A stretch of 64,000 nucleotides of DNA from Halorubrum aethiopicum (GTDB lineage Archaea; Halobacteriota; Halobacteria; Halobacteriales; Haloferacaceae), in assembly GCF_001542905.1 (NCBI RefSeq), contig NZ_LOAJ01000001.1:682001-746000 (forward strand). Direction: 5' to 3'. Positions 2,148 to 63,960 of this stretch are shown here, piece after piece. A program made the position numbers and the translations under genes. The first letter of the stretch is position 1. The number at the start of each line of letters is the position of its first letter. The notes under the pieces are model-generated. The model was not told the origin of the DNA. It worked only from the letters and a program-made list of their open reading frames with translations, and did no database searches.

Positions 2148-2565
2148 GTGAGGGAGTGAACGATCACGGTGGCGCGCCTCCGAGCGAGCCAGCGGCTCGC
2201 GAGGAGCCCGCGAGGGACGCGGCGAGTGGAGCGAGCCGCGAGGCTGGGTAGGTGTGAGGTGCGGGGCTGTGCGGGACGGGGTGGGACTCAAAGGGGCAGT
2301 CGCGAGGACGAAGACGCGCGACGTAAGGACCGCAGCGAAGGAGCGAGTGAAACGAGCGACTGAGCGAGGACCGCAACGAGCGCATCGAGTCCTCGCGGCT
2401 GGGGCTTTGGAGGGTGTTCACCGCAGTCACGCTCACCCCGTCAGCAACGACGGAATATCGAGCGACTGGGGTTTTGACGACGGTCACCGCGCCAGCAACG
2501 ATCCTGTTCTCATCACCCCGATCTTCATCGAAACATCCGTTCTACAAGCAGACGGATTCTCCTGC
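2148..2565 (+). repeat. Dispersed haloarchaeal repeat, copy A
   Basis: First of five related intergenic copies in the window, filling most of the 2090-2642 gap. The left end reads GGTGGCGCGCC (2168-2178), followed by the shared block GCCGCGAGGCTGGG and a GTGAGGTGCGGGG core. Inverted-repeat arms are CAGTCGCGAGGAC (2297-2309) and GTCCTCGCGGCTG (2389-2401), with one G-T wobble. The right end has CTTTGG and the palindrome GGTGTTCACC (2413-2422). A second, diverged CTGGGG-TTTTG block follows, then about 80 bp (2478-2563) that closely match the right flank of copy D. No ORF is supported inside it. Confidence 0.85.
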
Positions 2566-4424: not shown

Positions 4425-4493
4425 GAGTCGGACCCGTGAGTCCGAATCAGTGAGTCAGAACCAGCGAGTCCGAACCAGCGAGTCCGAATCAGT
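4425..4493 (+). repeat. Tandem 14-bp repeat, about five units
   Basis: Units start at about 4425, 4438, 4452, 4466 and 4480. Typical units are GAGTCCGAATCAGT and GAGTCCGAACCAGC; units 2 and 5 are identical. The array fills the gap between convergent mobA and the J-domain gene, and its last unit overlaps the J-domain stop codon. It may be replication-slippage sequence; no protein is predicted in it. Confidence 0.8.
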
Positions 4494-5061
4494 CCGTCAG
4501 GACCTCGTAGGCGCGGTTCAGCTGCTTGAACGCCTCCTCGTCGCCCTCCTCCCCGTCGGGATGGAGCCGCTTCGCGCGCTCGCGGTACGCCGACCGGACG
4601 GTCTCGTCGTCGGCGCTCGGGTCGAGGTCCAGCGTCGCGTACGCCTCCCGCTCCGACATCCCGCGCGTCGAGGGCGCTCGGTCGCGGGGGTCGCGGGAGC
4701 CGCCGGGGCCGCGGGCGTCGCGAGCGCCGCCCCCGAACCGCCCGCGCGACGTTCCGGTGCCGGTGCGACCGGACCCGGCCGCGCCCGCTCCGGCGCTGCG
4801 ATACGCGTCGCGGCGGTTCTCCGCGGCGCGGGCGCGCTGTCTCGCGCGTTCCCGATCCGTCGGTCCGACCCGCTCTGCCTCGCGGCGAACGCGCTCGCGG
4901 AGCCTGCCGCTGGCGTGGAACCACATGAGGTACGCCGCGACCCCGAACGGGACGGCGACGGCCAACAGCAGGGGGTTGACGACGACGCCGGCGACGACGA
5001 GAAGCGCCGTCAGCCCGACGAACGTCGCCGCCATCCCGACGAGGACGGTGCGGTTCGTCAC
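4489..5061 (-). CDS. Membrane-anchored J-domain protein
   Basis: A 190-residue protein with two hydrophobic segments near the N-terminus (about residues 4-24 and 26-43), a basic then glycine/arginine-rich linker (about 50-125), and a C-terminal J domain (about 130-190) with the diagnostic HPD tripeptide in [14 protein letters not shown] domains stimulate DnaK ATPase, so this is probably a membrane-tethered Hsp70 co-chaperone rather than DnaJ, since the Gly/Phe, zinc-finger and substrate-binding domains are absent. The GTG at 5061 is chosen because it precedes the first membrane segment; the frame stays open antisense through mutS only as GC-rich shadow. It is divergent from mutS, sharing a 114-bp gap. 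Confidence 0.85.
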
Positions 5062-17832: not shown

Positions 17833-18024
17833 GCGGTGGCGCGCCGGTGAGCGCCCGGAGGGCGCGAACCCGACCGCGAGGGACGCGGCGAGCGTGGCGA
17901 GGTACGAACGAAGTGAGTACCTCGATAAGCGAGCGGCGAAGCCGCGAGCCGTGAGCCGCGAGGCTGGGGAGGCGTGAGGTGCGGGGCGGTTGCGGTGCGG
18001 GGTGGGGCTTTGGAGGTGTTCACC
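17833..18024 (+). repeat. Dispersed haloarchaeal repeat, copy B (internally deleted)
   Basis: It begins GCGGTGGCGCGCC (17833-17845), contains GCGAGGGACGCGGCGAGC and GCCGCGAGGCTGGGGAGG, then GTGAGGTGCGGGG. It jumps straight from GGGTGGGG to CTTTGGAGGTGTTCACC (18008-18024). The region holding the inverted-repeat arms in copies A, C, D and E is missing, so this is a deletion derivative. It lies between the convergent DUF5784 and DUF5789 genes and accounts for most of the 348-bp gap; the rest of the gap shows nothing recognisable. Confidence 0.85.
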
Positions 18025-18106
18025 GCAGTCGTATCTCTCACTTCGTACTGCCGCGGCTCGTCGGGAACCGTCCGCAAAAATCGAACCGCTAACCGCCGCT
18101 ACCGTC

Positions 18107-25699: not shown

Positions 25700-25945
25700 T
25701 TGGACGGTTTCAAAGTCCCCACTGATCGGCTACCCGAACTGGGTGCCATAACTGTGGAGAACATTCACAAAGCCCCAGTCGCGAGGATTCGCGCGGCTCG
25801 CTGCGGTCCTCAGTCGCCGGGCTTCGTCCTCGCGACTGCCCCTTTGAATCCCACCCCGCCCCGCGACCGCACCTCACGCCTCCCCAGCCTCGTCGCTGGC
25901 GCGGTTCCGCGCCAGCGACTCCCTCGCGCGCGTTGCTCGCGCGCG
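25700..25945 (-). repeat. Dispersed haloarchaeal repeat, copy C
   Basis: Inverted relative to copies A, B and D. Arms on the plus strand are CAGTCGCGAGGAT (25776-25788) and GTCCTCGCGACTG (25826-25838), enclosing 37 nt. Next to them are the CAAAGCCC and CCCCTTTGAATCCCACC flanks, and then CACCTCACGCCTCCCCAGCC. The GGTGGCGCGCC end has diverged. A second, weaker block (TTTCAAAGTCCCCACTGATC, 25708-25727) corresponds to the double block of copies A and E. It explains most of the 348-bp gap before valS. Confidence 0.85.
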
Positions 25946-26025
25946 CCGGATCACTTAGTCCGGCCGCCGCGGTTCCGGCGTAACCGAGGCCGTTAAGAGG
26001 GAACCGCGGGAAATCCCACCCGATA

Positions 26026-42751: not shown

Positions 42752-44482
42752 TCACTCGACGGTCTCCTCCGCGGCCCCCGGCGCGTTCCGCTTCACGCCC
42801 GTGACGGCCTCGACCGCGTTCGACCGGGAGGCGTAGCCCTCGCCGCAGTCGGCGACGACGTTGCCGTTGCGGTGGCGGAGCCGCCAGCGCCACTCGCCCC
42901 CGGCGTCCTCGTAGATCTCGAAGGCGGCGTTTCCGACCTCCAGCGCGTCGGCCTCGGGGGCGTATCCGCGGACGCCCTCGATCGCGTCTCTCGCCCCGCT
43001 CCTCGAGGCGTACCCTCCGCCGCAGTCGGCGATGACGTTGCCGTTGCGGTGGCGGAGCCGCCAGCGGAACTCCCCGGCGTTGTCCTCGTACAGTTCGAAC
43101 GTCGCCTTCGCCCCGCCGTCGCCGGACCCGCCCTCGCCGGCGGACTCGTCACCGGCTTCCCCGTCGTCCGGCTCTGCGTCGAGGTCCGCGAGGTCGGCGT
43201 CGCCGACGTTCGACCGCACGCTCTCGAGTCCTTGGCGGGCCTTCGACCGGCTGCTGTACCCCTGCCCGGAGTCGGCGAGGACGTTGCCGTTCTCGTGGAT
43301 CAGCCGCCAGCGCCACTTTCCGCCCTTGTCCCGGTACACCTCGAAGGCGGCGGGGTCGACCCGGAGGTAGTCGGCGGCGGCGACGTGCTCGCGGACCCGC
43401 GAGAGCGCGCGCTTCGCGTTGGACTTCGAGGCGTATCCCTCCCCGGAGTCGCCGATGGTGTTGCCGTTGTCGTGGCGGAGCCGCCAGCGCCACTCGTCGG
43501 CGGCGTCCTCGAACAGCTCGAACGTCGCCTCGCTCTCGATCGTCTCGTCGTCGCTCGGAACGGCCACGTCCGGCTCGTCGGCGTCCGCGGGCTCGGGGCC
43601 GTCGTCGTCGGCGAGCGCCTCGGCCTCCTCGACGGGCGTCTCGATCCGCAACAGCCCCGCGCCCAGCGCGTTCCGCCTGACGCTGTGGAGTCCCTTCTGG
43701 GCCTTCCCGCGGCTGCTGTACCCCTGTCCCGAGGTCGCGATGACGTTGCCGTTGCGGTGGCGGAGCCGCCAGCGCGGCCGCCCGCTCGCGTCCTCGAACA
43801 GCTCGAACCTGGCCTTGCTCTCGTGGAGCGCCGCGGTCTCGGCCCGTGCGGCCGCGGTCTCGGCCTCGCGTTCCTCCGCGTCCGCCGCCGCTCCCGCCTC
43901 GATCTCCTCGATGCGGTCCTCGGCGGCGGCGAGTTCCTCGCGGGTCGTCTCGAGCTCGTCCTCCGTCGCCGCGAGCTCCGCTTCCGTCTCCTCGCTGGCG
44001 GCCGCGGTGGCGGCCGTCTCGGCTTGCATCCGCTCGTAGTCCTCGCGGACGGGGTCGGTCACGAGGGGAACGATCGTCCCCGCCAGCCCGATCACGACGA
44101 TGCCGGCCGCGTACAGCGCGTTGACGGTCGCGTTCCCCGTCGCCCGCGACCAGCCATCGGGGAAGACGACGAAGAAGTAGGCGACTCCGGCGAGCGTCAA
44201 CAGCCCGCCCAGCGCCCCGAGCGTCGTCGCGGATCGTCGCAGCGGGAACCGAACGATCGCCCCGAGCATCACGAGCGGCGGCGAGAGCGCCACGAGCGCG
44301 TATCCCACGGCACGAGTCGTCGTCCGCGGCGCGGTGACCGCGAAGACGACGACGCCGAGCACGCCCACGAGCACGCCCAGCGAGAATATCCAGTATCCAC
44401 GCACCTCGTCGTCCGTCGTCGGGGTCCCGATGCGCCCCTCGTACAGTTCCGCCAGCGGTCCCGTCGGCGTGTCTTCTGCCAT
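42752..44482 (-). CDS. Membrane protein with coiled coil and five DUF1508 (YegP) repeats
   Basis: A 576-residue multi-domain protein. Four membrane helices (about residues 30-50, 57-77, 86-106, 120-140) are followed by an Ala/Glu coiled coil (about 148-220). Five DUF1508 modules then follow near residues 222, 319, 379, 459 and 519. Each has the core RWRLRHxNGNxIxxSGxGY with the S/C change in the last two. Bacterial YegP has two such repeats of about 50 residues; five on a membrane anchor is unusual. The ATG at 44482 follows a TATA-like ATATATAAC by about 30 bp; the frame open further to 46600 is antisense to ligA. Function unknown. Confidence 0.88.
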   Translation of the reverse strand: MAEDTPTGPLAELYEGRIGTPTTDDEVRGYWIFSLGVLVGVLGVVVFAVTAPRTTTRAVGYALVALSPPLVMLGAIVRFPLRRSATTLGALGGLLTLAGVAYFFVVFPDGWSRATGNATVNALYAAGIVVIGLAGTIVPLVTDPVREDYERMQAETAATAAASEETEAELAATEDELETTREELAAAEDRIEEIEAGAAADAEEREAETAAARAETAALHESKARFELFEDASGRPRWRLRHRNGNVIATSGQGYSSRGKAQKGLHSVRRNALGAGLLRIETPVEEAEALADDDGPEPADADEPDVAVPSDDETIESEATFELFEDAADEWRWRLRHDNGNTIGDSGEGYASKSNAKRALSRVREHVAAADYLRVDPAAFEVYRDKGGKWRWRLIHENGNVLADSGQGYSSRSKARQGLESVRSNVGDADLADLDAEPDDGEAGDESAGEGGSGDGGAKATFELYEDNAGEFRWRLRHRNGNVIADCGGGYASRSGARDAIEGVRGYAPEADALEVGNAAFEIYEDAGGEWRWRLRHRNGNVVADCGEGYASRSNAVEAVTGVKRNAPGAAEETVE

Positions 44483-53167: not shown

Positions 53168-53517
53168 GAGAGTGAGTGATCGATTGCGGTGGCGCGCCTC
53201 CGAGTGCCCCGACGGGGCACGAGGAGCCCGCGAGGGACGCGGCGACTGTAAGGAGCCGCGAGGCTGGGGAGGTGTGAGGTGCGGGGGGGTTGCGGTTGGG
53301 TGGGACTCAAAGGGGCAGTCGCGAGGACGAAGCCCGGCGCAGCAAGCACCGGAACGAGGGAGCGAACGAAGTGAACGACCGAGTGAGGAGCACAGCAAGC
53401 CGCGCGAGTCCTCACGACTGGGGCTTTGGCGGTGTTCACCGCGCCAGCAACGATCCCCTTCTATCCATCCGATTCATCCACGAAACACCCGTTCTGTAAG
53501 CACTCAGATCCTGACGA
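53168..53517 (+). repeat. Dispersed haloarchaeal repeat, copy D
   Basis: The most complete copy. The left end is GCGGTGGCGCGCC (53186-53198), then CGAGGGACGCGGCGA, GCCGCGAGGCTGGGGAGG and a GTGAGGTGCGGGG core with a G7 run. Arms are CAGTCGCGAGGAC (53316-53328) and GTCCTCACGACTG (53408-53420). CTTTGG and the GGTGTTCACC palindrome follow, and the right extension 53430-53515 matches 2478-2563 of copy A. It fills the 597-bp gap between metY and the monooxygenase gene together with about 190 bp of metY upstream DNA. Confidence 0.88.
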
Positions 53518-63614: not shown

Positions 63615-63960
63615 AAGATCGAGGTCTCCAAATCCCCAGCCGCTCAGTTATAAGACGTTGACTGCCGATCGACGGTGAACACCGCCAAAGCCCCGGCCGC
63701 GAGGACTCGCGCGCTTTGCTGCGCTCCTCGTCACTCGCTTCGCTCGTTCCTGCGGTGCTTGCTGCAGCGTGCTTCGTCCTCGCGGCCGCCCCTTTGAGTC
63801 CCACCCCGCACCGCTCCGCACAGCAGCCTCACGCCTCCCCAGCCTCGTCGCTCACTTCGGGGCTCCCCGCTGGTCGCCCACTCCCTCGCGACTCCCTCGC
63901 GGGCTGGCTCGCGGCCGCCGGTGGCGGCCGCTCGCAGGCGCGCCACCGCGACGGGTCTCT
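63615..63960 (-). repeat. Dispersed haloarchaeal repeat, copy E
   Basis: Inverted relative to copies A and D. Plus-strand arms are CGGCCGCGAGGAC (63694-63706) and GTCCTCGCGGCCG (63776-63788), perfectly paired and with two compensated base pairs compared with other copies. GGTGAACACC (63674-63683), CCACCCCGCACCG, CACGCCTCCCCAGCC and the end GGCGCGCCACCGC (63937-63949) are all present. A second block (CCAAATCCCCAGCCGCTC, 63628-63645) corresponds to the double block of copies A and C. The rest of the 3' end of the window shows nothing else. Confidence 0.85.

Follow-up and report, generated by a model that had tools for sequence, protein, structure and literature searches.

A non-coding repeat of about 250 bases, composed of a folded 5' domain (with the hairpins hp1 and hp2) and a branched hairpin denoted P4, forms a real and large family that none of the sources searched lists. 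The family is present in many copies, with a conserved fold and folding strand, mostly in intergenic positions and partly at conserved sites, and in sister species the same sites hold different hairpin alleles. We infer that the element is mobile, and we tentatively favor the view that it is a REP-like, non-coding, non-autonomous repeat whose folded strand is recognized by a putative mobilizer and whose copies overwrite one another.

Copies in the window and anatomy of the element

The window is the whole stretch of 64,000 nucleotides analyzed here (C1:682001-746000; the genome, denoted G000, comprises 3.33 Mb on three contigs). The element body is bounded by GCGGTGGCGCGCC (start) and TTCACCGC (end). 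The five copies claimed in the earlier note (A to E) were all found in the places given there, the claimed spans including some shared flank:

2166..2424, plus strand: copy A, full element (5' domain, P4, and tail), aligned as L013 in alignment A1
2283..2410, plus strand: branched P4 hairpin of copy A, with the CAAAG/CTTTG root and GGG/GGG loop
2460..2491, plus strand: second (solo) tail unit of copy A, GAGCGACTGGGGTTTTG...TCACCGC
17833..18026, plus strand: copy B, its 5' domain carrying an insert in hp2 and its P4 missing save for the 3' tail
about 25755..25950, minus strand: copy C, P4 and a variant 5' domain without GCGGTGGCGCGCC
53186..53443, plus strand: copy D, full element, aligned as L001 in A1
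53302..53429, plus strand: branched P4 hairpin of copy D
63672..63949, minus strand: copy E, full element with compensated arms

The left end of copy C is unlike that of the other copies. As described previously, the arms are kept in four copies (in copy B, only the 3' tail of the hairpin remains), copy E differs from copy D by two base pairs changed on both sides, with a G-T intermediate in copy A, and CAAAG/CTTTG prolong the helix past the GGG/GGG loop. Searched across the window, AGGTGTTCACC (at most one mismatch) gave seven matches, four of them in the element (shuffles, 0.40), and GCCGCGAGGCTGGG (at most two mismatches) gave 12, five of them in the element (shuffles, 3.0). With our own simple gene caller, the placement between genes that was claimed earlier fits all five copies, with one exception noted for copy A, whose first bases are touched by the start of a minus-strand gene call (845-2167). 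An Rfam search of the window matched only archaeal rRNA and tRNA, and none of the matches fell on the element.

The window also contains other repeats, namely, a 14-base tandem repeat (about CAGCGAGTCCGAAC) at 4429-4504, around a called gene start at 4450, and, at 42784-43807, a 139-base repeat in five copies that are 65-73% alike, together with a 300-base pair at 70%; the same gene caller found few genes in the latter stretch.

Sequence islands kept among 49 copies are GCGGTGGCGCGCC, GCGAGGGAcGC, GCGAGGCTGGGGAGGcGTGAGGTGCGG, GGGACTCAAAGGGGCAG, CTGGGGCTTTGG, and TTCACCGC. Between them lie hairpins, the stems of which vary from copy to copy: the number of forms among 88 copies is 64 for hp1, 66 for hp2, and 85 for hp3, the approximate cut used somewhat inflating the hp1 and hp2 numbers. 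The 3-bp base of hp1 occurs as GGT/ACC, TCC/GGA, TGC/GCA, CGG/CCG, and other variants, and the hp1 stem is perfectly complementary in 149 of the 176 copies read (among 200 copies, 13 gave no hp1 match and 11 a second pattern, with pairing unscored). In the consensus fold, a helix CGCGCC/GGYGTG closes the 5' domain around hp1 and hp2; next come a linker rich in G and then P4, which is long and branched. GCGGTG and CACCGC, at the two ends of the element, are complementary to each other: the RNA fold predicted from copy D alone contains this pairing, whereas the consensus fold of the alignment does not.

Coding was considered and rejected: there is no period of three between the body anchors, despite the spacing of tandem tail units in multiples of three (77 of 82 spacings, mostly 51 and 57). 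Of 209 copies, 65 to 103 have a given P4 frame free of stops on the element strand, and 55 to 130 on the other strand. Tandem 3'-tail units were observed downstream of the element at L158, L232, L196, L251, and other loci, with stops in the frames through some of them; a CRISPR-like nature of these arrays was rejected since, among the arrays inspected, many of the spacers are locally duplicated, almost identical sequences. A module of two hairpins, GTTCGA...TCGTCATCACGA...TCGAACGACAAC, is nested in hp2 or P4 stems at L039, L041, L042, and L052, occurs also in L399 of another family, and is probably a separate small repeat. A block that starts with CCACCTTTTTC(AT)CGTCGGG, shared upstream of the element by L006, L041, L050, L037, and L074, is perhaps another hairpin repeat.

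Covariation and the folding strand

Three MAFFT alignments, none of them fitted to a structure, were analyzed, with each structure predicted from its own alignment by RNAalifold. A1 consists of 84 non-redundant copies (282 distinct cores, 209 with full anchors, 90 within length limits). A2 includes 62 of 80 P4 references, four of the 84 (L191, L192, L193, and L304, in which P4 is inverted, interrupted, or unusual) having been left out earlier. A3 includes 39 of 45 loci from other genera (L384, L385, L387, L389, L390, and L392 left out).

In A1, 96.1% of the cells are paired, and 35 of the 60 predicted pairs changed on both sides. The covariation is 0.404, compared with a shuffled mean of 0.160 (0 of 500 shuffles as high) and at most 0.075 when the columns were slid by 1-3, so that the covariation check proposed in the earlier note, carried out with pair counts, shuffles, and slid controls on the RNAalifold structure, came out positive. 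In the helix that closes the 5' domain, changes are confined to one side (G-C to G.U), so that it is conserved but not covarying. The 39 P4s of other genera in A3 behave similarly: 96.6% of the cells are paired, 27 of the 34 pairs changed on both sides, and the covariation is 0.590, against 0.179 when shuffled and at most 0.082 when slid. The P4 root is compensated between groups, with CAAAG/CTTTG in Halorubrum and GAAAG/CTTTC or GGAAG/CTTCC elsewhere. Covariation in Halorubrum and, independently, in other haloarchaeal genera strongly supports the earlier suggestion that RNA or DNA secondary structure is under selection.

The fold and its strand are well supported. At the 60 pairs of the 84 copies, G.U cells number 359 and A.C cells 54 (204 vs 54 once the mostly-G.U pairs are removed), indicating that the modeled strand is the folding strand; one G.U pair is invariant in all 84 copies. 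Tandem GA faces GA in 74 of the 84 copies in hp1, in 71 in hp2, and in 74 and 69 at two places in P4, and GGG faces GGG in 192 of 200 copies. Tandem G.A pairs are sheared and stable. Repair templated by the opposite arm would convert these mismatches into pairs, so their persistence favors selection on the fold.

Folding energies for the single sequence of copy D lend no support to this and in part point in the opposite direction. As RNA, the element strand is no more stable than shuffled sequences (z = -0.71), and its fold includes hp1, hp2, and P4 but not the helix closing the 5' domain. As DNA, the element strand (z = 0.02) folds without P4, and the other strand, with the P4 root present, is more stable than its shuffles (z = -1.99). 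In a few copies, such as L192, L304, and the G204 locus L272 (G204 being a sister-species genome), the interior of P4 is inverted with the root stem kept, so that the inner part does not always stay on the same strand; this suggests an inversion as if the two arms had recombined.

Copy number and placement in the genome

The core TGGGACTCAAAGGGGC (16 bases, at most two mismatches) matches the genome at 106 places, 58 on the plus strand and 48 on the minus strand (reversed control, 2); of these places, 100 were listed, and every one lies on the main contig. For a 25-base island in the 5' domain (at most three mismatches), 125 matches were counted (control, 0), which implies that some copies, such as copy B, lack a recognizable P4 core. 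Both counts bear out the expectation of many genomic copies; by simple arithmetic, about a hundred copies of about 260 bases amount to near 1% of the genome.

Placement and alleles were counted on 103 distinct copies compiled from the 100 listed core places and BLAST loci. Among the 94 with both ends, 12 share more than 60 bases with a called ORF. The 86 copies with genes called on both sides lie most commonly between convergent genes (37) and most rarely between divergent ones (11), and the orientation of the element is neutral to its neighbors in codirectional settings (18 vs 20). The genes were called by a simple codon-usage script, and the window background is small (15 gaps of at least 150 bases), making this a weak test. 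A replication-strand bias was rejected, the orientation of those listed core places that lie below 2.43 Mb (86 copies) having no run structure (z = 0.44); the run test was confined to this region, where core places of both strands were listed, and three minus-strand copies beyond it are known from fetched loci.

Shared sites and allele turnover

We compared G000, the genome of the window, with two genomes of sister species, G204 and G170. Both flanks were matched at a G000 copy for 22 of 36 G204 copies and 20 of 37 G170 copies, the remainder including copies cut by contig ends. At 39 of these 42 shared sites, G000 has a core in the same orientation, and none has a core in the opposite orientation only; at the other three, one of which is copy B, no G000 core is found at up to two mismatches.

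The occupants of these sites differ. In the 34 of the 42 orthologous pairs that could be parsed, hp1 is identical in 18%, compared with 2% of non-orthologous pairs, the former value being lowered by several pairs misparsed at hp1. P4 is identical in none of the 34 (0% in non-orthologous pairs), the hp1 class is equal in 41% vs 19%, and island identity is 94.6% vs 93.3%; one orthologous pair is 99% identical along the whole element. The alleles of hp1 and hp2 assort as in shuffles (mutual information 0.67 vs 0.62, 216 of 1000), whereas hp1-hp3 and hp2-hp3 are linked above chance (5 and 0 of 1000 shuffles, respectively), so that reassortment is incomplete. Near-identical tracts join unrelated G000 sites (L036/L064, 96.5% over 399 bp; L041/L050, 97.7% over 341 bp; L006/L050, 98.8% over 240 bp), which points to recent copying from site to site, and we observed P4 loss that leaves the tail behind as well as tails duplicated in tandem. 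Allele exchange, such tracts, P4 loss, and tail duplication are all expected of a recombining set of copies.

The earlier note had proposed a comparison of strains for the presence and absence of copies. Sites indeed proved to be often shared, but neither target-site duplications nor a clean empty-site junction emerged, the latter having been sought at 11 G000 sites matched to G204 or G170 copies. Two of these sites hold a copy (L322 and L323; core at up to three mismatches), one (L324) aligns through to the G204 locus with no core, two (L331 and L332) are P4-less remnants, two (L325 and L326) look empty but have no clean junction, and four (L327 to L330) showed no core in a core search without base-by-base alignment. 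Opposite copy D, G204 has a decayed copy rather than an empty site. True gain by transposition is nevertheless likely.

Distribution across genomes

Among 391 genomes of the class, a 15-base core (at most one mismatch) occurs at 6 to 186 places in 43 of the 46 Halorubrum genomes, the own genome included, and is missing from the other three. A variant core, GACTGAAAGGGGCAG, has 72 matches in one genome of another genus, and the remaining genomes of other genera have 0 to 2 core matches, which is the control level (0 to 5). In a scan of named genomes, 75 of the 80 matches listed were from Halorubrum, three from Halobellus captivus, and two from uncultured haloarchaea.

The P4 module is far more widespread. 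A P4 covariance model (R1) detected it in 125 of 157 genomes of the family, representing 21 of 28 genera, and 86 of the 125 are outside the genus; with 23 candidates scored per genome, the per-genome counts are floors. In other families, it was found in 27 of 40 genomes of our choosing, the best match being full length (E = 3e-19). Forty-five P4 loci of other genera were drawn from the scans of 16 genomes and of the 40 genomes of other families. Those inspected share GGGACTGAAAGGGGC...GCAAGCACCGCAG...GAGGAGCGCAGCGAG...GGGGGCTTTCG, with variations, and some carry a 5' domain; by eye, at least 19 head-to-head P4 pairs, 26-36 bases apart, were seen in at least seven genomes. P4 is the old module: the majority of the genomes sampled from the class carry it, in several arrangements, and in Halorubrum it is mainly fused to the 5' domain.

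A query that we composed found P4-like stretches in 15 plasmid records of other haloarchaeal genera. Halorubrum copy D had no match in the plasmid set, which includes at least one Halorubrum plasmid, or in the phage set, nor did a paired P4 locus in the phage set or one 20-base Halorubrum island in 2.9 million viral contigs; all of these sets may omit records close to this genome.

Outside G000, G204, and G170, in genomes nearly all from Halorubrum, a TATA-like hexamer precedes the element by 2-27 bases in 38 of 73 copies, and one is located 30-55 bases after the tail start in 33 of the 73. Before the element, the hexamer was found in 3 of 89 copies in G000, 1 of 22 in G204, and 0 of 23 in G170. 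A promoter before every copy was therefore rejected.

Comparison with known elements

That the element belongs to no named family holds for Rfam 15 and the literature searched, a scope short of subscription journals, supplements, and ISfinder. Rfam searches with 10 own loci (E up to 5) and 10 loci of other genera (E up to 1) yielded nothing above the gathering threshold, and the three weak sub-threshold matches among these 20 loci did not fall on the element. Judged by title, none of the ten papers that contain one of five island strings was about archaea.

REP and BIME elements and REPINs of bacteria work with RAYT transposases. Like these, the haloarchaeal element is a folded palindrome in many extragenic, chromosomal copies that folds on one strand, is inherited at its sites, and often lies between gene ends; unlike them, it has a far larger, branched fold (about 250 nt, 60 pairs) and stem sequences that are not conserved. 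G000 encodes no member of PF01797, which we take to be the Y1 transposase, the enzyme of bacterial REPs, and mobilization of the IS200/IS605 type was rejected for this genome on the same grounds; PF01797 is present in 41 of 52 genomes of the genus, and several of the 11 without it are copy-rich. Terminal inverted repeats with a target-site duplication, as in MITEs, were found in none of 194 Halorubrum copies. We therefore do not file the element with either the RAYT-dependent repeats or the MITEs.

Among the 45 P4 loci of other genera, one showed terminal inverted repeats with a duplication; because control windows gave 1 and 5 of 45, only this locus, L385, which was inspected by eye, counts. 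Inverted ends with TGTTYAG, about 206-332 bp apart, flank four of the 45 loci (controls, 0 and 0 of 45) and none of 200 Halorubrum copies on both sides; these ends resemble those of IS6-type elements. P4 lies inside the inverted ends GGTCGTGTTTAGTTAA / GGTACTGTTTAGTTAG at L385 (1454-1669; genome G333) and also at L374, L384, and L405, and L385 has an exact 8-bp duplication, GCCAACGG, at these ends. Presumably, L385 is an IS6-like MITE with P4 as its body. HEARO and omega RNAs of IscB/TnpB elements are structured and dispersed, with and without the gene, and resemble the present element in this respect, but no such Rfam match was obtained in the 20 loci.

Among elements described from a haloarchaeon, the closest in kind are two groups of repeats of Haloquadratum, the palindrome-associated transposable elements (PATEs) of Haloquadratum walsbyi and the small mobile repeats (SMRs) (PMC3119063). 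PATEs are transposase-free dispersed repeats with palindromes and no target duplication, and they include core-deleted "terminal-only" copies and smaller repeats inserted in the palindromes (PMC3119063), in all of which they resemble the present element; they are tied to IS605-type ends, whereas G000 lacks an IS200-type (Y1) enzyme, the comparison resting on the published description of PATEs. SMR-A, of about 110 bp, is close to P4 in size and has prominent inverted ends, no target duplication, and, according to the same source, an unknown mobilizer. SMR copies of one type are commonly more than 95% alike (PMC3119063), whereas P4 copies are not highly alike and have a branched, covarying interior. 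The repeat does not appear in the available parts of PMC10927574 and PMC12558985.

Possible origins of the family

Under the REP-like reading that we tentatively favor, the strand with the arms CAAAGGGGCAG...CTGGGGCTTTGG, which folds into the 5' domain and the branched P4, would be recognized as a folded single strand by a putative trans-acting activity, and copies losing the fold would cease to be propagated, so that the fold would be maintained by this form of selection. The hundred-odd copies would overwrite one another by ectopic recombination or gene conversion, swapping hairpins while sites and orientation stay; the same process would delete P4 or duplicate the tail.

Alternatively, many of the loci could be transcribed from the element strand to yield functional structured RNAs, with selection acting on the RNA rather than the DNA; such a molecule might be, for instance, a stable small RNA or a decoy that binds a protein. 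We consider this unlikely. The tolerance of G.U pairs, including the invariant one, the appearance of P4 in the RNA fold of copy D but not in the DNA fold of the same strand, and the hexamer before 38 of 73 copies in other genomes would be compatible with such RNAs. However, the rarity of the hexamer in G000, G204, and G170 leaves no consistent promoter-like motif, orientation is neutral to neighboring genes, and the core matches range from 0 to 186 among species of the genus.

We regard as improbable a regulatory or architectural role in the chromosome, whether between convergent genes, as a bidirectional 3'-end or a barrier to transcription, or as a site for a nucleoid protein. The excess between convergent genes points in this direction, as do the rarity of divergent settings, the location of all listed core places on the main contig, and the plasmid, phage, and viral sets without a match to Halorubrum queries, but insertion tolerance alone predicts an excess between convergent genes, and the lack of orientation run structure, the three genus genomes without a core match, and the P4-like stretches on plasmids of other genera argue against such a role.

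It is similarly doubtful that P4, alone or with the 5' domain, represents a class-wide family of mobile structured RNAs in haloarchaea, in which an RNA alternating Watson-Crick steps with tandem sheared G.A pairs would be recognized by a hitherto undescribed protein and would drive its own spread. Finally, covariation without selection, with quasi-palindrome correction and gene conversion producing the paired changes in the absence of a functional fold, seems very unlikely: hairpins that differ wholesale at orthologous sites with flanks 82-98% identical, allele change faster than single compensated mutations would allow, and the inverted P4 interiors would fit, but the GA/GA and GGG/GGG motifs are kept, the G.U excess marks one folding strand, and other genera and families retain the same fold and the same motifs in the loops.

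Implications

Dispersed extragenic repeats are common; one with a two-domain branched fold, many natural compensated variants, and a core module present in the majority of the class genomes sampled is unusual. Because mismatched motifs are kept inside freely swapped stems, the family already provides the data needed to tell selection on a fold apart from templated mutation. If the mobile-RNA reading were true, archaea would own a SINE-like or HEARO-like system. The family also poses a testable question, namely, what recognizes and moves the folded element where a genome is devoid of the Y1 enzyme of bacterial REPs, and it lends itself to studies of the spread of such elements and of the reasons for which their fold persists.
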